DNA of 38,255 nucleotides from Chloroflexota bacterium. GTDB taxonomy: Bacteria; Chloroflexota; UBA6077; SHYK01. Location: contig DASRDP010000060.1 in NCBI GenBank assembly GCA_035652535.1, positions 1 through 38,255 on the forward strand, written 5' to 3'. The translations under genes were made by a program, and so were the position numbers. Of the stretch, positions 15,046 through 33,672 are shown piece after piece (the first letter of the stretch is position 1; the number at the start of each line of letters is the position of its first letter). A model generated the notes under the pieces. It made no database searches and had not been told where the DNA came from. It was given only the letters and a program-made list of their open reading frames with translations.

Positions 15046-16050
15046 CTAGGTGTCGAGCGTGCTCCCCGCGAAGAGCAGCTCGTACGCCAGTGGTGCGCGG
15101 ATGTGGCCCTGCTCGGCGTTGAAGCGAATGTAGGAGTCGATCGTGCGCTTGTTGGCCGTGATCCCGTACTTGAACGGGTCGCCCCACTTCTCGATCTGCT
15201 CCTCCATATGTTCGCGCAGGTAGAGCACGCCGAAGCCGGCCCGGTCGTTGAGGATGTCCGTATAGGCCATCTCTTTCGATTTCTCGAACGCCTGATAGAG
15301 CTGCATGGCCAGTTCCGGTCGCGCCCGGTCGAGCTTCTTACTCATGACCATGAGATGCACCGGCGTGTATATGCCCTCCTCGCGATAGAGCCGCTCGTCT
15401 TCGGCCTGGTAGCTGGGGAACAGGCGCCGCACGTTGGGACTCGCCTTCAGCGCGCGGATGGCTTCGCCATCGGAGATATCCGTGATCATGGCGTCGACGT
15501 CTCCATCCAGGAGCGCGTTGACGACACTCTTCTGCGGGTCGCGGAACAGCTCCGGCTCGAAGGTCCCGTCGCCCTTGCCGCCATTCTGCGGCGTCGCGTA
15601 GACGGGGAAATGATCCTTGACCCAGACGACCCAGCGCATCTTCGAGATGTCCACGCCGAACCGTTCGCGAAGGAGTCCGCGCGCCCAGATGGTCAGGGAT
15701 GTGCCATACGACCGGGAGGCGACGACCTTGCCCTCCAGGTCCTTGGGGCTCTCAATGCCGCGATCGGTACGGACGAAAATGAACTGGTAGGCGCCTTTCC
15801 GCTTGGAGAAGACCGGGAGGGCAACGATCTCCCATCCCTGCTCGATGGCCTGCGGCCAGTACCCGAGGTTCAGGTCGGCGAGGCCGAAGTTGCCCTCGCG
15901 CAGGGTCGGCTCGTCCTTGTAGATCATGACCGGCGCCTGCCCGATCTGGATCTCGACCCCCTCGATGGGCACCCGTTTCTCGAGAAATGGCCGCATGATG
16001 TCGTAGGTCATACTGGGAACCTGGAGCGTGAGCTGCTTCGTCGCGGCCAT
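15046..16050 (-). CDS. 4,5-dihydroxyphthalate-decarboxylase-like / PBP-fold protein 1
   Basis: A 334-residue protein of the family that holds 4,5-dihydroxyphthalate decarboxylase (Pht5), which shares the type 2 periplasmic-binding-protein fold with NMT1/THI5 proteins. Landmarks are LPVFSKRKGAYQFIFVRTD, SPKDLEGKVVASRSYGTS, LLDGDVDAMIT and IYTPVHLMVMSK. It has no signal peptide or lipobox (starts MAATKQLTLQVPS), so it acts in the cytoplasm, more consistent with an enzyme than a transporter receptor. GGAGGT precedes the ATG. Two paralogues lie at 30234 and 32680. It is divergent from the BNR-repeat gene across a palindromic operator-like site. Confidence 0.8.
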   Translation of the reverse strand: MAATKQLTLQVPSMTYDIMRPFLEKRVPIEGVEIQIGQAPVMIYKDEPTLREGNFGLADLNLGYWPQAIEQGWEIVALPVFSKRKGAYQFIFVRTDRGIESPKDLEGKVVASRSYGTSLTIWARGLLRERFGVDISKMRWVVWVKDHFPVYATPQNGGKGDGTFEPELFRDPQKSVVNALLDGDVDAMITDISDGEAIRALKASPNVRRLFPSYQAEDERLYREEGIYTPVHLMVMSKKLDRARPELAMQLYQAFEKSKEMAYTDILNDRAGFGVLYLREHMEEQIEKWGDPFKYGITANKRTIDSYIRFNAEQGHIRAPLAYELLFAGSTLDT

Positions 16051-22422: not shown

Positions 22423-23640
22423 TTAGCCGGCGGCGACCGCCTGGCGGCTGGAATCGGGCGTGACCGCGACCCCGTCGAGATGGAAGTAGTCGATAGCGTT
22501 CTGGGCCACGATCCGCCGCGTCTCCTCGGCGGGCACCCTCGCGAACATCTTGTCGATGAGGGCCATCGAATTGGGCCACTCGGAGTCCTGGTGGGGGAAG
22601 TCGATGGCCCACATGATTCGATCGACGCCGATGTGGTGGCGCAGCTCCACGCCCACAAAGTCGTGCTGGAAACCCCAAAACACGTGCCGGTGGACGTACT
22701 CACTCGGGAGCCCCTTCAGCGGCTTGAAGCCGAGGAGCTTCTGCGCCCACAGCTCGTGCCGCTCGTAGCGCACGTCGCACATCTCCAGATAGAAGGGGAT
22801 CCAGCCGATCTGCGTCTCGGCGAAAAAGACCTTCAGGTCCGGGAAGCGGTCGAACACCCCGTCCAGAACGAGCTGGATGGCGTTGACGCCGCCGAGGCGG
22901 CCGAACTTGACCATCTGCCCGCAGAAGTCGCGCGGCTCGCTGATGCGATCGATCACGTCCTTGGGTGCGCTGGGGTACTTCAGGAGGGCGCCCGCGCGTG
23001 GGCCGGTGCGGTCGAACTGCTCGTGGGCGGTTATGGCGACCTTGAGGTCGAGGGCCGCGGCCCAGAAGCGGTCGTCCTCGGGGCTGGGACGGCCGAGCCC
23101 ACTGGGGAACGTGCCGAGCATGACGCCTTTCAAGCCCTGCTTCGCGCAGTGCTCCATCTCGGCGATGGCGTCGTCGACGCCCGTCCATGGGATGACTCCC
23201 AGCCCGATGAGGCGATCGGGGGCGACGGCACAGTACTCCTCAGCCAGGAAGTCGTTGTAGGCACGCACGACCGCCAGATAGGCCTGCCGATCGGCGATAG
23301 CGCTCCACAGGCCCGGGCCGGACACGCCGGGGAACATCACTTCCGCGTCGATCCCGTCGCGGTCCTGCTCGGCGAGCCGCTGCTCGGGCGTGCCGGTGCC
23401 GGGCGTCGTCTCGTAGTTCTGTCCGAAGGGCCACCAGCGCTCGCGGCCCTTCCCGCCGTACAGATCCGATGGCACCTCGCGCAACGGACGTCCCTCGATC
23501 ATCCATGCGTCGCCGCCATCCGGCAGGCGAATGACGCGGGGGGCGCGATCGCGATACTGCGCCGGAACGCGGTGAATCCACCGCTGGGAATCGATCTCGA
23601 GATGCGAATCGCCAGAGATATAGCGATACTCGCGTGCCAT
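22423..23640 (-). CDS. Amidohydrolase-2 family metal-dependent hydrolase/decarboxylase
   Basis: A 405-residue TIM-barrel of the amidohydrolase-related (ACMSD-like) family that cleaves C-N or decarboxylates aromatic acids with a metal. Visible: GDSHLEID (Asp11, His13, Glu15) at the start, AITAHEQF (metal His), ETQIGWIPF, and IDFPHQDSEWPNS (metal Asp). Many members are decarboxylases of dihydroxybenzoates or gamma-resorcylate. Two ATGs stand in tandem (23643, 23640); the second has better spacing from GGGAGG. It lies 65 bases downstream of the UbiD-type gene, on the same strand, so both may treat the same aromatic carboxylate. Confidence 0.9.
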   Translation of the reverse strand: MAREYRYISGDSHLEIDSQRWIHRVPAQYRDRAPRVIRLPDGGDAWMIEGRPLREVPSDLYGGKGRERWWPFGQNYETTPGTGTPEQRLAEQDRDGIDAEVMFPGVSGPGLWSAIADRQAYLAVVRAYNDFLAEEYCAVAPDRLIGLGVIPWTGVDDAIAEMEHCAKQGLKGVMLGTFPSGLGRPSPEDDRFWAAALDLKVAITAHEQFDRTGPRAGALLKYPSAPKDVIDRISEPRDFCGQMVKFGRLGGVNAIQLVLDGVFDRFPDLKVFFAETQIGWIPFYLEMCDVRYERHELWAQKLLGFKPLKGLPSEYVHRHVFWGFQHDFVGVELRHHIGVDRIMWAIDFPHQDSEWPNSMALIDKMFARVPAEETRRIVAQNAIDYFHLDGVAVTPDSSRQAVAAG

Positions 23641-23705
23641 CATGCCCTCCCGTGAGAAACGCGGTTCTCCTTCCACTGTTGGCGCTATTATGCGGCTTTC
23701 CGCCG

Positions 23706-25196
23706 TCACGGCCGCTGGCTGGCTAGCGCGTGGCTGGCGCGCGTCGCTTGCGGTCGCGCCCTGCCGTCCGGCGAGAAGAGCTCCGGCCAGTTCGCGCGAA
23801 GCTCCTTCGCCTCGGCATCGCCGACGCGCGCGACGGTTGGAAAGGTCTTCGCCCGATCGTAGGGCCTGCAGGCGTCGATGATCATCCGATTGTTGAAATA
23901 CCGGGGCCCTTCGCCCGCGTAGGCCATGGGGTCGAGCGGCGTGCTCCAGCAGCGCTTCATCACGTCCACATCTTCGACGACGTCCGTGCGCGTGCACATC
24001 GCCCAGAGCACCTGGTTCGTGTCGCACGGGTCGATGTCGTCGTCCACGACCACCACGAAGCGGTTCGCATAAGCGCCAGCGTGGCAGCTCGCCGTCGCCA
24101 TGCCGACCTGCTTGGCGTGGCCCGGATACATCTGCTGGATGGCCACGACGTTGAACATCCGGCCACCCCCAGCCTCGTGCGACCAGACGCCGACGACACC
24201 GGGCACGCCGGACCGCTCGAGCTCGTCCCAGATGAGGGCGGCCCGGAGCGGACTCCGGAAGTAGGTGTTGTCGTTGGGCGGCTTGCCGGGGAGGCAGCCG
24301 AGCACGATCGGGTCGTCGCGATGGAGCACCGACCGAACGCGAATGATCGGCTCGTCCTTCTCGCCGCTCGCGTAGTAGCCGGTCCACTCGCCAAACGGCC
24401 CCTCGGAGCGCATCTCACCTGGCGGAATCTCGCCCTCCAGCACGATCTCGGCCGTCGCAGGGACCGGCAGGCCCGTATAGGGCGCGGAGATCAGCTCGAT
24501 CGGCTTGCGCCGAATCGCGCCCGCGACGTCGTACTCATTGGTTCCGTAGTCGACTTCCAGCCCACCCAGGAGGAGCAGGAGAGGATCTTGCCCGACGCAG
24601 ACCGCGACCGGGCAGGCCTCTCCGCGGCTCCAGTACTTGTCCCGAATGAGGCGGCCGTGCTTGCCCGGCGAGATGTAGATGCCGGCCGTTTGCGCGTCGT
24701 GCATCTGGACCCGGTACGTCCCGGAATTGACCCAGCCCGTGTCCGGATCCCGCATCACCACGATGTTGCCCGTGCCGATGTATCGTCCGCCATCGTCTCG
24801 GTGCCAGATGGGCGCGGGGAACTGGGTGAGGTCGATGGCGTCTCCCCGCTGCTGATTCTCGAGAACGGGGCCGGATTCGACGGTCACGGCCGGCTGCGGT
24901 TTCAGGTCTTTGAGCTGCGTGCGCCATGCCTGGACGAAATCGCGCGGGCCGTAATCGAGGGGGAGATCCAGGCTGATGGCGAGCCTGCGCAGCGACGTGA
25001 AGACGTTGGCGACGATGCGGTGCCCGGGCCGGTACCCTCGGATGTGGTCGAAAAGCAGAGCCGGGTTTCCCATGTCCCACTGGTACAGATCGACGAGCCC
25101 ACCCAGCTCGTACTCGGGGTCCGCGCCGTCCACGCGGGACAGCTCCCCGATCTCGTCAACGCGCTCGATCCATTCGCGGAGGTCCCGTACCGGCAT
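23706..25196 (-). CDS. UbiD-family decarboxylase (prenyl-FMN type)
   Basis: A 496-residue protein of the UbiD family, which uses prenylated FMN to decarboxylate aromatic or alpha,beta-unsaturated acids. Visible landmarks: the MPVRDLREWIERV start, VNSGTYRVQMHD with the cofactor-binding Arg region, GPFGEWTGYYASG with the active-site Glu, and FVVVVDDDIDPCDTNQVLWAM near the C-terminus. Length is in the usual range. A GGGAGGAG site precedes the ATG at 25196. A perfect TATAAT at 25224-25229 indicates its own promoter. A UbiX prenyltransferase, which it would need, is not in the window. It neighbours an amidohydrolase-2 gene downstream and the Mo-hydroxylase operon upstream. The C-terminal tail after 460 is Ala/Arg/Gln-rich. 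Confidence 0.92.
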   Translation of the reverse strand: MPVRDLREWIERVDEIGELSRVDGADPEYELGGLVDLYQWDMGNPALLFDHIRGYRPGHRIVANVFTSLRRLAISLDLPLDYGPRDFVQAWRTQLKDLKPQPAVTVESGPVLENQQRGDAIDLTQFPAPIWHRDDGGRYIGTGNIVVMRDPDTGWVNSGTYRVQMHDAQTAGIYISPGKHGRLIRDKYWSRGEACPVAVCVGQDPLLLLLGGLEVDYGTNEYDVAGAIRRKPIELISAPYTGLPVPATAEIVLEGEIPPGEMRSEGPFGEWTGYYASGEKDEPIIRVRSVLHRDDPIVLGCLPGKPPNDNTYFRSPLRAALIWDELERSGVPGVVGVWSHEAGGGRMFNVVAIQQMYPGHAKQVGMATASCHAGAYANRFVVVVDDDIDPCDTNQVLWAMCTRTDVVEDVDVMKRCWSTPLDPMAYAGEGPRYFNNRMIIDACRPYDRAKTFPTVARVGDAEAKELRANWPELFSPDGRARPQATRASHALASQRP

Positions 25197-25258: not shown

Positions 25259-25759
25259 CTAGCGGCCGGCAGCGAGACGGGCGATCGCCTCGTGCACGGA
25301 GTCGAGGATCTTTACGTAGCTCCCGCACCGACACAGATTGCCCGCGAGATACGCGCGGATCTCCTCGTCGGTGGCGTCGGGCCGCTCGGCGAGGAGCGCC
25401 TTGGTCGTGAGGAGGATGCCGGGCGTGCAGTACGAGCACTGGAAACCCGTTCGCGCCACGAACGCGGCCTGGATCGGGTCCAGGTGCGCGACGTCGCGGA
25501 CGCCCGATTCGTCTGTGGGAATGCCGAGCCCTTCGAGGGTGAGGACCTCGTGGCCTTCCGCCATGGCCGCGAGGGCGAGGCAGGAGCTGATGGGCCGGCC
25601 GTCGACGAGCACCGTGCACGCGCCGCACATGCCGATGCCGCACCCCTCGCGCACGCTGAGCAGCTTCAGCTCGTCGCGGAGTGCCTCGAGGAGCGTGCGC
25701 GAGTTTGGGACGTCGACGACGTGGAGGTCGCCATTCACGTGGAGCGTCACGCCCGTCAA
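25259..25759 (-). CDS. Molybdenum hydroxylase, 2Fe-2S subunit
   Basis: About 166 residues, small subunit of a xanthine-dehydrogenase-family enzyme. A ferredoxin-like cluster site is formed by CGIGMCGACT and a Cys after VDGRPISS; the helical second cluster domain has CSYCTPGI and NLCRCGSY. Both clusters are complete. Start is uncertain: a TTG at 25759 makes a TTGA overlap with the stop of the large subunit and follows GGGGGCGAG, while a GTG at 25750 would begin VTLHVNG. It transfers electrons from the Mo centre to the FAD subunit. It is last of the four-gene operon that runs from 30117. Confidence 0.93.
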   Translation of the reverse strand: MTGVTLHVNGDLHVVDVPNSRTLLEALRDELKLLSVREGCGIGMCGACTVLVDGRPISSCLALAAMAEGHEVLTLEGLGIPTDESGVRDVAHLDPIQAAFVARTGFQCSYCTPGILLTTKALLAERPDATDEEIRAYLAGNLCRCGSYVKILDSVHEAIARLAAGR

Positions 25760-28056
25760 CGGCTCGCCCCCTCTATCGCGTCCAGCACGCGCTCCGGCGT
25801 GAGCGGGATGCGGTTTACGGCTGCGCCGATCGCGTCGCGCACCGCGTTGCCGATGGCCGGCGGAACGGCGGGGAGGCCCGTCTCCCCGAGCCCGTGGACT
25901 TCGGCGTTGGGGTCCGGGCTTTCCGCGAGGGTCGTCGTGAACGGGGCGGGGAAGTCTTCCATGGACGAGATGTTGTAGTCGGAGAGGTTGGGGTTCGTGA
26001 CCTGGCCGTCCTCGAACAGCATCTCCTCGAACAGCGCCTGAGAGATGCCGAACGCGGCGCAGCCCTCGTTCTGCAGCTCGGCGTTTGGGCGGTCGATGAC
26101 GCGCCCGGCATGGGTTGCCAGGTGGAGCTTCAGTAAGGTGACCTTGCCCGTCTCGCGATCGACCTCCACCGTCGCCGCGGCCGCCGCCTGGTGCCAATGA
26201 TGGGACGCCTTACCCTGGCCGGTCTCTGGGTCGACCCCAATCTCCGTTTTGAACCCGCCGACGCCGGCCAGGCTCTCCACGCCGGCCTGCCGGAGCAGGG
26301 CGGCGATGTCGACGGGCTCCCCTTGGCCGACGCGGACGAATCCGCGCTCCGCGGTCACCTCCGATTCAGGGACCTCGAACACCTGACCGGCGAGCCCGCG
26401 AAGCTGACGGTAGAGGTCTTCGGCCGCGACGTGGGCGGCCAGGACGTTGAAGAAGCTGGATCGGCTCGAGCTGGTCCCTTGGTCCGGCGGGGTGGAGCGG
26501 GTGTCCACGAACGGCACGTCGACGCGGTCCTCCGGGACCCCGAGGGCGCGGGCGACTTCGCGGGCGAGCACCGTGCGCGAGCCCTGGCCGATGTCGACGG
26601 TGCTGCTGAGCGCGCTGATGGCGCCGTCGGACCGGAGACGGATCATCAACGTCGTGGTCGCCGGATTGCTGCCCATGTGCTTGATAATGGTCGAGAGGCC
26701 GCGCCCGACGAGCTTGTTGGGCCCAGATGGCTCGGGAAGCGGGCCGTCGTAGTCGATGGCCCGGGCCGCGTCCTCCAGCAGCTCGACGAAGTGGACGTCT
26801 TCCAGCACCTCGCTCGTGGCGAAACGGTCGCCGGTCCGGAGAAGATTCTTCCGCCGAAACTCGAGCGGGTCCATTCCCAGCGCGTGGGCCAGCTCGTCGG
26901 TGTGGCGCTCGTACGCCCACGCGACCTGCGAGACGGCTAGGCCGCGGAACGGCACCGCGTTCGGCCGATTCGTGTACACGGCGTAGGCGTCGACCTTGAC
27001 GTTCGGGATGCCATATGGCCCCGACGCGCCAATTCCGCCCGAGCGCGCGATCGTCCCGCTCCGATCCGCGTAGGCGCCGCCGTTGTAGTGGACCTCGACT
27101 TCGCGCGCGGTGATCGTCCCATCGCGCTTGAGGCCGGTCTTGATGCGGACGCGGGCCTCGTGCTTGGTCGTCGTCACGAAGCCCTCGGCGCGCGTAAGGA
27201 GGAGACGCACGGGCCGCATTGCCTTCTGGGCCAGCACGGCCGCCAGGGGCTCCATGCGCGTGTACGTTTTCGAGCCGTATCCCCCGCCGAGGGTGTAGAC
27301 GAGCACGCGGACGCGCTCCGCGGGGATGCGAAAGACGTCGGCGACCTGTTGCCGGACGAAGTAGGGCATCTGGGTCGAGGACCAGATGGTCAGCTCGTCA
27401 TCCTCCCAGCGCGCCACCGTGACGTGCGGCTCCAGCGGGTAGTGGTGCAGGGCGGGACTCGAGAAGACGTCCTCGTGAACGATCTCCGCCTCGGCGAATC
27501 CCGCCTCGACGTCGCCGCGCCGTACCTTCATGTGGTTGATCAGGTTGGTCCCGTTTTGCGGCTGGATTCCTCCGGCGGCGAACTCGTAATGGCCAACGAT
27601 CTGCTCGTGGACGAGCGGAGCGTCGGGCTTGAGCGCCTCCACGGCGTCGAAGACCGCCGGCAGCTCCTCGTACTCCACCTCCACGAGGTCGATGGCATCC
27701 GCGGCGGCGTCCGGCGTCTCCGCTACGATCGCGGCGACCACGTCACCTACGTGGCGCGCCTTGTCGATGGCGACGATCGGTTGGTCCTTGATGGCGGCGC
27801 CGTAGTAGGGGAACAGGCGACCATCGGACAGGTCGTCGCGGGTCAGCGCGGCGACGACGCCCGGGTGCGCGAGTGCCCGCGAGGCGTCAACGCGAACGAT
27901 ACGGGCGTGAGGATACGGGCTGCGGACGCAGCGGGCGTGCAGCATGCCGGGCAGCTCGACGTTCAGCGCGTACGGGATCTGCGCCGTGACCTTCATGACG
28001 GCGTCGCGGTCGCGCTGGGTCATCTGGGCGCGGGGCGGCGGGATCGTCTGGGTCAT
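25756..28056 (-). CDS. Molybdenum hydroxylase, large molybdopterin-binding subunit
   Basis: A 766-residue catalytic subunit of the xanthine dehydrogenase/aldehyde oxidase family, hydroxylating a carbon of an N-heterocycle, purine or aromatic CoA/aldehyde. Features: the N-terminal a/b hammerhead domain (GMLHARCVRSPYPHARIV), the cofactor-contact motif GGGYGSK, the active-site loop PFRGLAVSQ, and the C-terminal GLGETG with the catalytic Glu. The loop lacks the AYxCSFR signature of form I CO dehydrogenase, so CO oxidation is unlikely. ATG 28056 overlaps the stop of the dCTP deaminase gene by ATGA, a sign of coupled translation. Chaperones (XdhC type) are not in the window. Confidence 0.93.
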   Translation of the reverse strand: MTQTIPPPRAQMTQRDRDAVMKVTAQIPYALNVELPGMLHARCVRSPYPHARIVRVDASRALAHPGVVAALTRDDLSDGRLFPYYGAAIKDQPIVAIDKARHVGDVVAAIVAETPDAAADAIDLVEVEYEELPAVFDAVEALKPDAPLVHEQIVGHYEFAAGGIQPQNGTNLINHMKVRRGDVEAGFAEAEIVHEDVFSSPALHHYPLEPHVTVARWEDDELTIWSSTQMPYFVRQQVADVFRIPAERVRVLVYTLGGGYGSKTYTRMEPLAAVLAQKAMRPVRLLLTRAEGFVTTTKHEARVRIKTGLKRDGTITAREVEVHYNGGAYADRSGTIARSGGIGASGPYGIPNVKVDAYAVYTNRPNAVPFRGLAVSQVAWAYERHTDELAHALGMDPLEFRRKNLLRTGDRFATSEVLEDVHFVELLEDAARAIDYDGPLPEPSGPNKLVGRGLSTIIKHMGSNPATTTLMIRLRSDGAISALSSTVDIGQGSRTVLAREVARALGVPEDRVDVPFVDTRSTPPDQGTSSSRSSFFNVLAAHVAAEDLYRQLRGLAGQVFEVPESEVTAERGFVRVGQGEPVDIAALLRQAGVESLAGVGGFKTEIGVDPETGQGKASHHWHQAAAAATVEVDRETGKVTLLKLHLATHAGRVIDRPNAELQNEGCAAFGISQALFEEMLFEDGQVTNPNLSDYNISSMEDFPAPFTTTLAESPDPNAEVHGLGETGLPAVPPAIGNAVRDAIGAAVNRIPLTPERVLDAIEGASR

Positions 28057-29207
28057 GGCCGTTTGAACTGCTTGCTCAGGGCCAGATCCTGTCCCTGGTA
28101 GGTTGAGCCGATCAATCGGCCGTAGACGCGGTCCGGTATCTCGATCAGCGGCTCGAACTGGAGACGTCCGACCCGCTGACCGTCCTCCAGGACGAAGGGC
28201 ACCTCATGCGAGCGGACTTCCAGCACCGCGTGCGTCCCCTTGATGTCAGAGCTTCCGTATCCGAAGCCGGGATCGAAGAAGCCCGCATAATGGATGCGAA
28301 ACTCCCCGACGGATGGGTCATAGGCGACCATCTCCGCGGCATACGCCGGTGGCACGCGGACCCGCTCCTTCGAGGCGAGGATGTAGAAGTCTTCGGGGTT
28401 GAGGATGAGGCGGCCGGCGCGCGGGCGAGAGATCGGCTCCCAGAACTCGGTGAGATCATAATAGGCGACACGGTCGAGATCAATCAGGGGCGCGTGGGTC
28501 TTCGCGCGATAGCCGATGATGGCGGCGCCCTGCACGCCGTCGAGGTCGACGGAGATCCACAGCCCGTCGGCGATGGTCGGCGACTCGACGGCCTCGTCCT
28601 GCAGGTACAGCAACGTCTGGGTCTGATGGAGGCGCGCCAGGGCGCCGTCGCCGGGCTGGGGCGCCCCGCGGATGAATCGGATCTGGTTCATCCGGGTGCC
28701 GGCGCGAACCAGGATGCTGAACGTCCGGGGGACGATCTCCAGGTACAGGCCGCCACAGTAGCCGGCCGCCACGCGCTCGAACTCGGTTGCGTAATCCGTG
28801 ATCAGCCGGGTGAAGACGTCGAGCCGACCCGTCGTGCTCTTCGGGTTCGCCTTTCCCGAGATGTTCGGGGGCAGGCGCCACTCCTCCATGAGCGGCACGA
28901 GGTAGACGCATCCGCGCTCTAGGACGGCGGGCCGGGTCAGGTCGATCTCGTGGGTCTTGAACTCCTCTGCCTTCTTGAGCACCGTGGACCCTCGGCCGGG
29001 AAGGAAGCTCGCGCGCACCCGGTACGCGACCGGCCCGAGTCGCAGGTCGAGGCTCGCCGGCTGGATCTGGGCCGGCTCGATGGGCGCGGATGAGGGAATC
29101 GAACCGGCGTCGATGAGCGTGCGAATGCTCTGCGATGGCAGAATTCCGGTCGCTCGGTGGGCGGCCACGCCCAGCTCGGGGAAAAGGGTGGGCGACTGCG
29201 CGCTCAT
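28053..29207 (-). CDS. dcd: 2'-deoxycytidine 5'-triphosphate deaminase (two-domain form)
   Basis: A 384-residue protein with two tandem dUTPase-like barrels, matching the long dCTP deaminase type. First domain: GKANPKSTTGRLDVF, FERVAAGYCGG, and the catalytic Glu in LYLEIVP. Second domain: YAGFFDPGFGYG, LEDGQRVGRLQFEPL, and a YGRLIGSTYQGQ tail, the familiar C-terminal motif. It would convert dCTP to dUTP for dTMP synthesis. The start at 29207 was chosen because reading upstream overlaps the adjacent gene; AGGA stands close before it. It lies between the FAD subunit and the large subunit of a molybdenum hydroxylase, 34 bases from one and overlapping the other by four, an unusual place for a pyrimidine-nucleotide enzyme. 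Confidence 0.88.
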   Translation of the reverse strand: MSAQSPTLFPELGVAAHRATGILPSQSIRTLIDAGSIPSSAPIEPAQIQPASLDLRLGPVAYRVRASFLPGRGSTVLKKAEEFKTHEIDLTRPAVLERGCVYLVPLMEEWRLPPNISGKANPKSTTGRLDVFTRLITDYATEFERVAAGYCGGLYLEIVPRTFSILVRAGTRMNQIRFIRGAPQPGDGALARLHQTQTLLYLQDEAVESPTIADGLWISVDLDGVQGAAIIGYRAKTHAPLIDLDRVAYYDLTEFWEPISRPRAGRLILNPEDFYILASKERVRVPPAYAAEMVAYDPSVGEFRIHYAGFFDPGFGYGSSDIKGTHAVLEVRSHEVPFVLEDGQRVGRLQFEPLIEIPDRVYGRLIGSTYQGQDLALSKQFKRP

Positions 29208-29241
29208 TCCTGGTCCCGCCCGCGCGCGCACCCCGCCATCG

Positions 29242-30117
29242 TCAGACCCGTCGCGCGCCGACGTCCCCGGCCGCCGCGGCTTCCAGGGCTCGGCGCACAA
29301 ACACTGCCACCATTCGCGCACGATACGCGGCCGATCCGCGCGCGTCGGCGACGGGCTCCGCCTGGTCGGCATAGGCCTGGCCAATGTGACGGAACAGATC
29401 GACGGTGGCCGGCATTCCGGCGGCGGTCGCGTCGATGGCAGGCAGGCGAAGGGGCGATCCTCCGACGGCGCCGACGGCGACGCGAAGCTCCTCGACGCGA
29501 TTCCCGTCGAGGCGTAAGAGCGCGGTCGCGCCGACGCACGGTCGGTCTTCCGAGGAGCGCGTGACGTACTTCAGGTAAACGCATCGGGCGTTGGATGGAG
29601 GGAGCGGGACCAGCACCTCAGATACGATCTCGTCGGGCGCGAGGCTCGTCTCGTAGAAGTCGGTGATCAGCTCGTGCACCGCGATCTCGCGCTCGCCCCG
29701 GGGGCCGGCGATTCGCACGCGCGCTCCGAGCGCGCAGAGGACGCCCGGTGGATCGGACGCGTAGTCCGCCTCGCAGACGTTTCCGCCGATCGTCGCCGCG
29801 TTCCGCACGCGGACGTTGCCGACGAGGCCGCACGCCTGCGCGAGGACGGGAGCGCCCTGCCGTACGGCGGGCGAGGACGCGATGTCGGCGAGCGTCGCGA
29901 GAGAGCCGAGGTGAAGCGCGCCGTCGTCTCGTCGAACCCCAGATAGGCCGGAGATGCCGTCGAGTCGGACGAGGGCGGCCGGGCGAACAAGCCCCTGGTG
30001 GATCATCGCCACGAGCGCCGTGCCGCCTGCGATGGGTCGCGCCTGGCCGCCGTAGCTGCCAAGCACGTCGACCGCTTCGGCAAGGGTTGTGGGTTTGTGC
30101 AGGGCGAAGTCGCTCAC
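29242..30117 (-). CDS. Molybdenum hydroxylase, FAD-binding subunit
   Basis: A 291-residue subunit of the CoxM/XdhB type. FAD-binding motifs GGTALVAMIHQG and NAATIGGNVCEADYASD are clear, and the C-terminal CO-dehydrogenase flavoprotein domain ends with an Ala/Arg-rich helix. It passes electrons from the Fe-S subunit to an acceptor. GTG at 30117 is taken as start (VSDFALHKPTTLAEAV), with GGAGG about ten bases before; a longer reading from 30186 is less likely. It is the first gene of the operon and is divergent from dihydroxyphthalate-decarboxylase-like gene 2. Confidence 0.9.
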   Translation of the reverse strand: MSDFALHKPTTLAEAVDVLGSYGGQARPIAGGTALVAMIHQGLVRPAALVRLDGISGLSGVRRDDGALHLGSLATLADIASSPAVRQGAPVLAQACGLVGNVRVRNAATIGGNVCEADYASDPPGVLCALGARVRIAGPRGEREIAVHELITDFYETSLAPDEIVSEVLVPLPPSNARCVYLKYVTRSSEDRPCVGATALLRLDGNRVEELRVAVGAVGGSPLRLPAIDATAAGMPATVDLFRHIGQAYADQAEPVADARGSAAYRARMVAVFVRRALEAAAAGDVGARRV

Positions 30118-30165: not shown

Positions 30166-30233
30166 CGCCCCCGTCCGGGATTGCATTCCCCCGCGGCATG
30201 CCGGAGGATTTGGCCGACGAGACGGGAGGAGTG

Positions 30234-31208
30234 ATGGGAGACATTCGGCTCACGCTGGCATGTGGCGACTACGACCTGACGCGAGCGCTCATCGACGGGA
30301 CGGTTCGCCCGCCCGGCGTGGAATTGACCGTGCTGCCCATGCCTTCGCCCGAGCGCCACTGGCGCATGATGCGCTTCGAGGAGTTCGACATCGCCGAGCT
30401 GTCGATGTCGCACTATCTCGTCGCCTACGCGGAAAAGCGCGAGTTCACCGCGATTCCCGTGTTTCCCCACCGGCGCTTTCGCCACTCGTTCGTCTTCTGC
30501 CGGGCCGACGCGGGCATCGACCAGCCTCGGGACCTGAACGGCAAGCGAATTGCGCTGCGTACGTTCCAGAACACGGCGGGCGTCTGGACCCGGGGCATTC
30601 TCGCCGACGACTACGGCTTCGACATCGCCAGTGCACGCTGGTACACCCAGGACGAAGAGGAAACGCCGTGGGAGCCGCCGGCCTGGCTCCAGATCCAGCG
30701 GGTCCCGGAGGGCGGCAATCTCGACCGGATGCTGGTGGAGGGGCAGCTGGACGCCGCAATCTATCCAGAGACGCTCCCGTCGTTCGCGAAAGGAGACCCG
30801 CGGGTGCGGCGCCTCTTCGAGCGGCCGAAGGAAGTGGAGGTCGAATATTTCCGCCGAACCGGCATCTTCCCCATCATGCACACCGTGGCGATTCGCAATG
30901 ACGTTCTCCACGCCTATCCGTGGGTGGCGGTGAGCATGCTCCGCGCGTTTCGCGAGGCGAAGGAGCGCTGCTACCGCCGACTTGCGGACCCGCGACAGAC
31001 AGCCCTCGCATGGGTGCAGGATCTCATCGAGGAGCAGCAGAAGGTCCTCGGTCCCGATCCGTGGCCCTATGCTCTGGAGCCCAACCGCGCCGCGCTCACC
31101 GCGCTCATCCGCTACTCGCAGGGTCAGGGGCTGATTCCGACCGCGCCCGAGGTCGAGTCGCTCTTCGTAGAGAGCACGCTCCGGGAAAGTCCGCGTTACG
31201 TGAGCTAA
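30234..31208 (+). CDS. 4,5-dihydroxyphthalate-decarboxylase-like / PBP-fold protein 2
   Basis: A 324-residue relative of the proteins at 15046 and 32680. Shared pattern: FDIAELSMSHYL, AIPVFPHRRFRHSFVFCRAD, QPRDLNGKRIALRTFQNTAG, LVEGQLDAAIYPE, and RRTGIFPIMHTVAI. Pht5 decarboxylates 4,5-dihydroxyphthalate to protocatechuate, but relatives of this fold may decarboxylate other aromatic acids. There is no signal peptide, which argues for a cytoplasmic enzyme. ATG 30234 follows GGGAGGA; a GTG one codon earlier is the other option. It is divergent from the Mo-hydroxylase operon, and its stop overlaps that of the YgjP-like gene on the other strand. Confidence 0.8.
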   Translation: MGDIRLTLACGDYDLTRALIDGTVRPPGVELTVLPMPSPERHWRMMRFEEFDIAELSMSHYLVAYAEKREFTAIPVFPHRRFRHSFVFCRADAGIDQPRDLNGKRIALRTFQNTAGVWTRGILADDYGFDIASARWYTQDEEETPWEPPAWLQIQRVPEGGNLDRMLVEGQLDAAIYPETLPSFAKGDPRVRRLFERPKEVEVEYFRRTGIFPIMHTVAIRNDVLHAYPWVAVSMLRAFREAKERCYRRLADPRQTALAWVQDLIEEQQKVLGPDPWPYALEPNRAALTALIRYSQGQGLIPTAPEVESLFVESTLRESPRYVS

Positions 31209-31945
31209 CCGGCGCCCTCGGTCGGCGCTACCGCGAACTCCATGGTCAGCGACGGGCCAATGGCATTGAGCTTCGCGCGCAACGCCCGATAGTCCGGCAG
31301 GATTCGTCCGACCTCCTCCCAGAACGCCGGGGAGTGATCGAGCACGCGGAGATGGGCCAGCTCGTGGACCACGACGTAGTCGATCACGTCGGCCGGCGCC
31401 ATCACCAGGCGCCAGTTGAAGCGGAGCGTGCCGTCCGCGCCGCAGCTCCCCCACCGGCGGCGCTGGTCCCTGACGCGAACGGCACGCGGCTCCACGCCCA
31501 TCACCACGCCCCAGCGCGCCACGTGGGACGACAGCCGAGTCGCCGCCTCCGCGCGATACCAGCGCTCGATCGCGGCCGAGAGCATTCGACGCCGCTCGTC
31601 CCCGCCGAGCGACGCGGGCTCGATGACGAAGAGCGCGCCTTCGCGGCGCGCCACCAGCGGGCGAGTCGCGGCGCCAGGTTCGACGATAAGGCGGAGGGGA
31701 CGTCCCAGGTAGGGAATGCATTCCCCGCTCGCGAATTGGAGCGGCGCTCGGTCCGGCGGGCGCGCGGCCAGCCGGCTGGCGATCCACCGCCGATGCCGCT
31801 CGACGAAGCGCCGGATCTCCTCGGCCCGGGCCCGCATCGGCGCGGCGACGCGCACCGTCCCGTCCCTCTCCACGGTGAGTGCAAAGGTCCGCCGCCGTCG
31901 CGCGCTCCGGACCACGATGTAGCGGAGGGGTGTGTCCTCGTTCAT
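31205..31945 (-). CDS. YgjP-like (DUF45/M48-type) metallopeptidase
   Basis: A 246-residue protein with the zinc-metalloprotease motif HELAHLRVLDHS (His, Glu, His and a downstream His), preceded by the RRRWGSCG segment that marks the YgjP/WSS1-like family. The N-terminal half is a beta domain (LRYIVVRSARRRRTFALTV). No membrane helix or signal peptide. Function of bacterial YgjP is still debated; a nucleotide-phosphatase activity was proposed for a homologue. ATG 31945 is preceded by GGAGAGG. It converges with the Pht5-like gene 2, and the two stop codons share the four bases CTAA (31205-31208). Confidence 0.88.
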   Translation of the reverse strand: MNEDTPLRYIVVRSARRRRTFALTVERDGTVRVAAPMRARAEEIRRFVERHRRWIASRLAARPPDRAPLQFASGECIPYLGRPLRLIVEPGAATRPLVARREGALFVIEPASLGGDERRRMLSAAIERWYRAEAATRLSSHVARWGVVMGVEPRAVRVRDQRRRWGSCGADGTLRFNWRLVMAPADVIDYVVVHELAHLRVLDHSPAFWEEVGRILPDYRALRAKLNAIGPSLTMEFAVAPTEGAG

Positions 31946-31992
31946 CACCTCTCCGCCGGTGGAGCTGGGCGTGCGCGGCTTCGGCACGGGGA

Positions 31993-32679: not shown

Positions 32680-33672
32680 ATGGCCCAATCGACGAGCATC
32701 CACCTGCGCATGGTGATCCCACCCGCCCCCTGGACGCGCGCCATGGAAGATGGGAGCGTCCGCATTCCGGGGCTAACGTGGGAATGCGTTTCGGAGATCG
32801 ACAACGCGCCCGATCGATTCATCGCGACCGAGCAGGGCGACGTAGCGGTGGGAGAGAACGGCGTGCGCCGCCTCGTGCTCGAGCTGCTGAAGGGCCGCCC
32901 CGCGCGGGCGATCCCCGTCTGGTTCGGGCGCGAGCATATGCAGCGGAACATCATCGTGCGCGCGGACTCTCCGCTGCATCACCCGCGCGATCTCGCCGGC
33001 AAGCGAATCGGCTCGCGGCTCACGATCCAATCAGGAACAGGGGCGGCTGTCCTCATGGTCCTCGATCACGCCTATGGCATCGATCTCATGAGCATCGACT
33101 GGTTCATGGGCGATCCCGCCTCCCTCCCAGCGAACGCGATGGGGCTCCGCCTCCACGACGGCCCGACTTCGGAGGAGGCCGAGTTCGCGATGCTGCTGCG
33201 CGGCGACGTGGACGCGGTCATCGAGACCACCGGTCCTCGGTACCATTCGCTATTCGGCGCGGACTCTATCGATCAGCTTCTCGCGCGCTATCCAGGGACC
33301 AGGCCGCTCATTGAGGACCCCGGGGTGATTGCCGAGACGTACCGGCGGACCGGGCTCTATCCGATCTCAGATCTGGCGACGGTCGACCCGGACGTAGCCC
33401 GCGCCCACCCGGAGATCCCTGGCCAGGTTGTCGAGGCCTTCTCCCAGGCGAACCGCCGCGCGGCCGCGTATCGGCCGGCCGACGAGCAAGCCCTCGCCGA
33501 GCGAGAGATCGAGCTGCTCGGCGAGGACCCGCACGTCTACGGATTGAGCGATACGGCGCGCGCAAACATCGCGGCGTTCATCGATTTTCTGCACCGGCTC
33601 GGCGCTTTCGAGCGTCCGGTCCCGCCCGAGGATCTGTTCCATCCATCAACGCTGCCTGGCGGAGGGCGCTAG
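32680..33672 (+). CDS. 4,5-dihydroxyphthalate-decarboxylase-like / PBP-fold protein 3
   Basis: A 330-residue third member of the family in this window, the most divergent of the three. Shared pattern: GDVAVGENGVRRL, AIPVWFGREHMQRNIIVRAD, HPRDLAGKRIGSRLTIQSG, LLRGDVDAVIETTG, and RRTGLYPISDL. The conserved His in the last motif (IMHTV, TPVHL in the others) is absent: ISDLAT. No signal peptide. Own promoter at 32625-32653. It precedes an LLM oxidoreductase on the same strand by 57 bases, likely co-transcribed with it. Pht5-like decarboxylase or a substrate-binding relative; the loss of the His makes catalysis less certain here. Confidence 0.75.
   Translation: MAQSTSIHLRMVIPPAPWTRAMEDGSVRIPGLTWECVSEIDNAPDRFIATEQGDVAVGENGVRRLVLELLKGRPARAIPVWFGREHMQRNIIVRADSPLHHPRDLAGKRIGSRLTIQSGTGAAVLMVLDHAYGIDLMSIDWFMGDPASLPANAMGLRLHDGPTSEEAEFAMLLRGDVDAVIETTGPRYHSLFGADSIDQLLARYPGTRPLIEDPGVIAETYRRTGLYPISDLATVDPDVARAHPEIPGQVVEAFSQANRRAAAYRPADEQALAEREIELLGEDPHVYGLSDTARANIAAFIDFLHRLGAFERPVPPEDLFHPSTLPGGGR

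Follow-up and report, generated by a model that had tools for sequence, protein, structure and literature searches.

The window, meaning the whole 38,255-nt stretch analysed here (contig DASRDP010000060.1, contig C60 of its genome), carries a run of minus-strand genes in which a dCTP deaminase (DCD) gene lies between two subunit genes of a molybdenum hydroxylase. The features, in window coordinates, are as follows.

22423..23643, minus strand: Amidohydro_2 gene (PF04909, 80 bits)
23706..25196, minus strand: UbiD-family decarboxylase gene (PF01977, 220 bits; NCBIfam TIGR00148 above cut-off)
25259..25744, minus strand: [2Fe-2S] subunit gene, start uncertain and possibly as far up as 25762 (PF01799, PF00111)
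25756..28056, minus strand: large molybdopterin subunit gene (MoL), 766 aa (PF02738, PF20256 and PF01315, all above cut-off)
28053..28056, minus strand: ATGA, the DCD stop overlapping the large-subunit start (read in the sequence)
28053..29207, minus strand: two-domain dCTP deaminase gene (product P0001), 384 aa, ATG start (NF005734/PRK07559, PDB 2r9q)
29208..29241, minus strand: 34-nt spacer from the FAD-subunit stop to the DCD start (read in the sequence)
29242..30117, minus strand: gene for the FAD-binding subunit of a molybdenum hydroxylase in the xanthine-oxidase family, 291 aa (open reading frame; PF00941, 151 bits; PF03450, 65 bits)
30234..31208, plus strand: substrate-binding-protein-like gene (SBP1), divergent from the FAD-subunit gene (PF12974, 29 bits)

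The FAD-subunit gene has a GTG start, with an in-frame ATG further upstream at 30186. Its reading frame ends at 29242 and the DCD start codon occupies 29207-29205, which agrees exactly with the 34-base interval given by an earlier sequence-only reading of this DNA. The ATGA overlap described there is likewise present, the TGA of the deaminase (28055-28053) sharing bases with the ATG of the large subunit (28056-28054). Downstream, the UbiD-family gene is separated by a gap of 62 nt from the hydroxylase genes and is probably on the same transcript; the Amidohydro_2 gene is likely the end of the run.

The deaminase itself was called two-domain from the sequence, and Pfam finds both halves. The parts of the protein relevant here are listed below.

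28665..29150, minus strand: N-terminal domain (DCD_N), residues 20-181 (PF06559, 241.8 bits)
28065..28643, minus strand: C-terminal domain (DCD_C), residues 189-381 (PF22569, 259.1 bits)
28824..28841, minus strand: N-domain motif K123-S124-T-T-G127-R128 (KSTTGR), aligned with KSSLGR of the M. tuberculosis DCD
28218..28220, minus strand: C-domain residue E330, placed opposite the LEL glutamate of the M. tuberculosis DCD in the alignment
28089..28100, minus strand: Y370-Q-G-Q373, the C-domain lid, aligned with the YQGQ lid at the C-terminus of single-domain DCDs

P0001 scores 525.2 bits against the NF005734/PRK07559 equivalog (cut-off 283), with residues 16-382 covering positions 5-366 of the 368 in the model, and the nearest solved protein is PDB 2r9q (E=7e-126). 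In the C-domain, AGFFDPGF...LEV and GSTYQGQ align with AGFIDPGF...LEL and GSKYQGQ of the M. tuberculosis enzyme. In the E. coli DCD these motifs form the active site and the glutamate activates water; the counterpart of E330 there is the catalytic Glu138. All 81 homologues compared share residues K123, S124, G127, R128 and E157 of the N-domain together with E330, Y370 and Q373, and Q371 is conserved in 79 of the 81. A changed substrate through loss of motif residues was considered and dropped on these grounds. Judged by curated model, domain pair and motif residues together, P0001 is a member of the two-domain dCTP deaminase class. It resembles the NF005734/PRK07559 type (2r9q) in full length, in both Pfam domains and in its motifs, and departs from it only in where the gene lies in the genome, within a hydroxylase operon, and in the phylum of its host. 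The dUMP-forming dCTP deaminase/dUTPases of M. jannaschii (1ogh) and M. tuberculosis (2qxx) belong to the same superfamily and give weak profile matches to each half of P0001, but each has a single domain and a length of about 190-204 aa, unlike the 384-aa, two-domain P0001.

The surrounding enzyme is, on its domain content, a hydroxylase of the xanthine-oxidase family, as the large, FAD and 2Fe-2S subunits all carry the expected domains. The large subunit contains MoCoBD_1/MoCoBD_2 and Ald_Xan_dh_C, and the FAD subunit FAD_binding_5 and CO_deh_flav_C, in each case over the Pfam cut-offs. In this the operon is like those of the xdhABC and 4-hydroxybenzoyl-CoA reductase types, whose FAD, molybdopterin and 2Fe-2S subunits are all represented. 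Unlike in xdhABC-type operons, a dCTP deaminase gene here parts the FAD gene from the large-subunit gene, and the large subunit reaches no NCBIfam equivalog cut-off. It scores 415 bits against a cut-off of 780 for XdhA, 385 against 784 for PucD and 277 against 850 for xanthine_xdhB, all xanthine dehydrogenase models, and 264 against 991 for the aerobic CO dehydrogenase large subunit (TIGR02416). A purine link by way of the large subunit gained no support, as no curated xanthine dehydrogenase model passed. To judge by the neighbouring UbiD and amidohydrolase genes, the hydroxylase may act on a carboxylated, possibly aromatic or heterocyclic, compound.

The source genome (G000) comprises 4.45 Mb in 168 contigs, is an estimated 98.3% complete with 4.6% contamination, and has Chloroflexota MAGs as its nearest named relatives. 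The sequence-only reading had proposed looking for a second dcd or dut gene, and neither turned up in G000. Neither the P0001 protein query nor the PF22769 profile found a second DCD-fold gene. The trimeric dUTPase (PF00692) was not found in G000 or in three relatives from the same family (G001, G002 and G004), and the dimeric dUTPase (PF08761) was found in none of the five family genomes, G000 to G004. The single PF00692 match in G003 overlaps that genome's single-domain DCD-fold gene (G003:C3:450863-451294), an addition that makes G003 the sole family member with both DCD types. The missing dUTPase is in itself unremarkable, because known dUTPase genes are reported absent from many bacterial phyla (PMC5122711). 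G000 has a ThyX-type thymidylate synthase and two MazG-like matches, and DCD is present in all five genomes. Where a genome has ThyX and a single DCD, that DCD would be expected to supply the dUMP.

The gene order was compared in these four relatives, which represent four other genera of the same Chloroflexota family (G001, assembly JAERMM01; G002, assembly WHTR01; G003; G004). Half of the arrangement recurs in each of the first two. In G001, DCD (75% identical) begins about 50 nt beyond a FAD gene (61%), and the next gene, on the opposite strand, encodes a solute-binding protein; DCD thus comes last after the FAD gene, with a 52-nt leader of its own. The G001 orthologs of the large subunit (70%) and the 2Fe-2S subunit (69%) are on a separate contig, where another gene precedes MoL; the DNA upstream of the large-subunit gene is the end of a different protein and holds no DCD remnant. 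In G002, DCD (73%) overlaps MoL (73%) through a stop/start overlap similar to that of the window, a Kelch-repeat gene occupies the expected place of the FAD gene, and the SBP1 ortholog (82%) comes after it. The best G002 matches to the FAD and 2Fe-2S subunits, only 48% and 60% identical, sit side by side at another locus and are probably paralogs. Different genes flank the two-domain DCD of G003 and G004, and in each of these genomes purM is the next gene but one.

The deaminases of the window, G001 and G002 group together (SH-aLRT 95), and a single clade of all five family deaminases is compatible with the data (p-AU 0.67). Because the FAD-DCD adjacency recurs in G001 and the DCD-MoL overlap in G002, the order FAD-DCD-MoL was most likely present in the common ancestor of these two and the genus of the window. 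This implies that G001 and G002 later broke the cluster on opposite sides of DCD, each retaining DCD itself. The two relatives are incomplete, many-contig MAGs (80-83% complete), in which some breaks could be contig ends or results of binning; both break points beside DCD fall within contigs. At a separate G002 locus (L143, G002:C308:10765-12261), a remnant of just 40 residues of a large-subunit C-terminus lies between FAD and 2Fe-2S subunit genes, which suggests deletion of the large-subunit gene there.

For a wider comparison, genome contigs were scanned, which returned 317 relatives, the best 80 of which were kept; these are mostly from Nitrospirota and Pseudomonadota (Alphaproteobacteria). 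Among these best 80 of 317, hydroxylase subunit genes flank DCD only in G001 and G002, with flanks of up to 6 kb, and 76 further homologous loci have no hydroxylase genes near DCD in flanks of the same size. In the literature collection searched, no paper mentions DCD, xanthine dehydrogenase and operons together. Two-domain DCD is found in this family and most other Chloroflexota examined have single-domain DCD-fold genes; therefore the two-domain gene may have come into the family from outside.

We consider it very likely that P0001 is an ordinary dCTP deaminase, the only one of its genome, whose gene was placed ancestrally in a hydroxylase operon, is co-expressed with it without shared chemistry, and has since been separated from one or other partner in two relatives. 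The housekeeping role is argued from its being the sole DCD-fold gene of a 98.3%-complete genome with ThyX, from the equivalog score and from the invariant motifs. The insertion of a housekeeping gene was one of two explanations offered by the sequence-only reading, and it is the one that these results favour, together with the position near purM in two family genera. The enzyme would hydrolyse dCTP to dUTP, the source of the dUMP used by thymidylate synthase, here ThyX. In an ancestor of at least three genera, its gene would have moved between the FAD and MoL genes of one of the family's many hydroxylase operons. Given the 34-nt spacer upstream and the 4-nt stop/start overlap downstream, it would now be carried on the hydroxylase message, with the ATGA probably giving translational coupling. 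The result would be co-expression without metabolic coupling, in a neutral arrangement. The link to purine- or heterocycle-hydroxylase genes that had been read from the sequence thus stands as gene order and goes no further. Absence of a second deaminase and of a conserved neighbourhood had been said to point to chance; no second deaminase indeed exists among the genes found, yet part of the neighbourhood is conserved inside one family, as half-clusters in G001 and G002 and not in G003 or G004. Chance in this genome alone is the wrong description, with FAD-DCD recurring in one other genus and DCD-MoL in another.

The other explanation in the sequence-only reading gave the deaminase fold an unusual pyrimidine as substrate, one related to the compound that the hydroxylase acts on. 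In a broader form, the deaminase would act on, or assist in metabolizing, a pyrimidine or heterocycle that the hydroxylase also uses or makes. Tight spacing, the ATGA overlap and a linkage common to three genera speak for such a coupling, but we regard it as highly improbable. The unusual-pyrimidine reading fails because the motifs are intact, there is no second DCD and DCD is readily parted from either partner: the conserved residues are all invariant, the match is at equivalog level, no other DCD is available for the housekeeping job, and the relatives have lost different halves of the cluster. The linkage is also missing from the 76 other loci, within 6 kb, and the UbiD and amidohydrolase-2 genes further downstream point to carboxylated, possibly aromatic, compounds rather than pyrimidines. 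Somewhat less improbable, and still unlikely, is that co-expression was selected without shared chemistry, the operon promoter being well suited to the amount or timing of dCTP deaminase needed, so that the arrangement was retained for a while. That it lasted in three genera, at about 73% identity, and the similar stop/start overlap with MoL in G002 fit this idea; the differing contexts do not, since DCD comes last after FAD in G001 and first, without a preceding FAD gene, in G002. We give almost no credence to an assembly or binning artefact that joined unrelated pieces into one contig. The MAG-like assembly, with its 168 contigs and estimated 4.6% contamination, leaves room for such errors, but JAERMM01 and WHTR01, assembled independently in other projects, show the same junctions, and the G+C content of DCD (66%) is near that of its neighbours (67-71%) and of the window (67%).

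The favoured explanation, an inherited and neutral placement of a housekeeping deaminase, can be set against a crude estimate of how surprising the placing is. With about ten FAD/MoL junctions in roughly four thousand gene junctions, the chance is a few in a thousand per gene. By this estimate one such placing is expected across the hundreds of housekeeping genes, and the placing is therefore weak evidence of function. Against neutrality, the linkage has persisted while the proteins of these genera diverged to about 73% identity, and chance neighbours are usually parted sooner; co-expression may therefore bring some advantage. The placing is real, shared with relatives and easily undone, and it gives no reason to expect a new enzyme function. 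This settles a lead that came from guilt by association: the adjacency over three genera most likely reflects inherited operon structure and not shared metabolism.

The family also exposes a gap, as it combines a dCTP deaminase, ThyX in G000 and no recognised dUTPase, a setting that would make it important what reaction the two-domain deaminase catalyses. It is conceivable, though we think it rather doubtful, that the two-domain DCD itself covers both steps and yields dUMP directly in this Chloroflexota family, where neither the trimeric nor the dimeric dUTPase turned up. If so, the PRK07559 type would be a second, independently built dUMP-forming deaminase.

The hydroxylase genes are numerous in these genomes. 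G000 has 11 matches to the FAD subunit and 30, including some fragments, to the large subunit; large-subunit matches are similar in number in G001 and G002 and fewer in G003 and G004. Paralogous operons in which MoL directly follows FAD occur at G001:C72, G002:C17 and G000:C126. The window holds three related substrate-binding-protein-like genes of the PF12974/NMT1 type beside catabolic genes (15046-16050, 30234-31208 and 32680-33672), with no transporter membrane genes noticed near them. A YgjP-like metallopeptidase gene (31205-31987; PF01863, 203 bits) also lies among the catabolic genes. Two luciferase-like oxidoreductase-type reading frames and one of enolase-superfamily type, all named by eye, are present in the window as well. 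Together with the roughly 30 large-subunit matches in G000, these resemble the expansion of catabolic paralogs described for SAR202, a clade of Chloroflexota (PMC6946804, PMC10444878).
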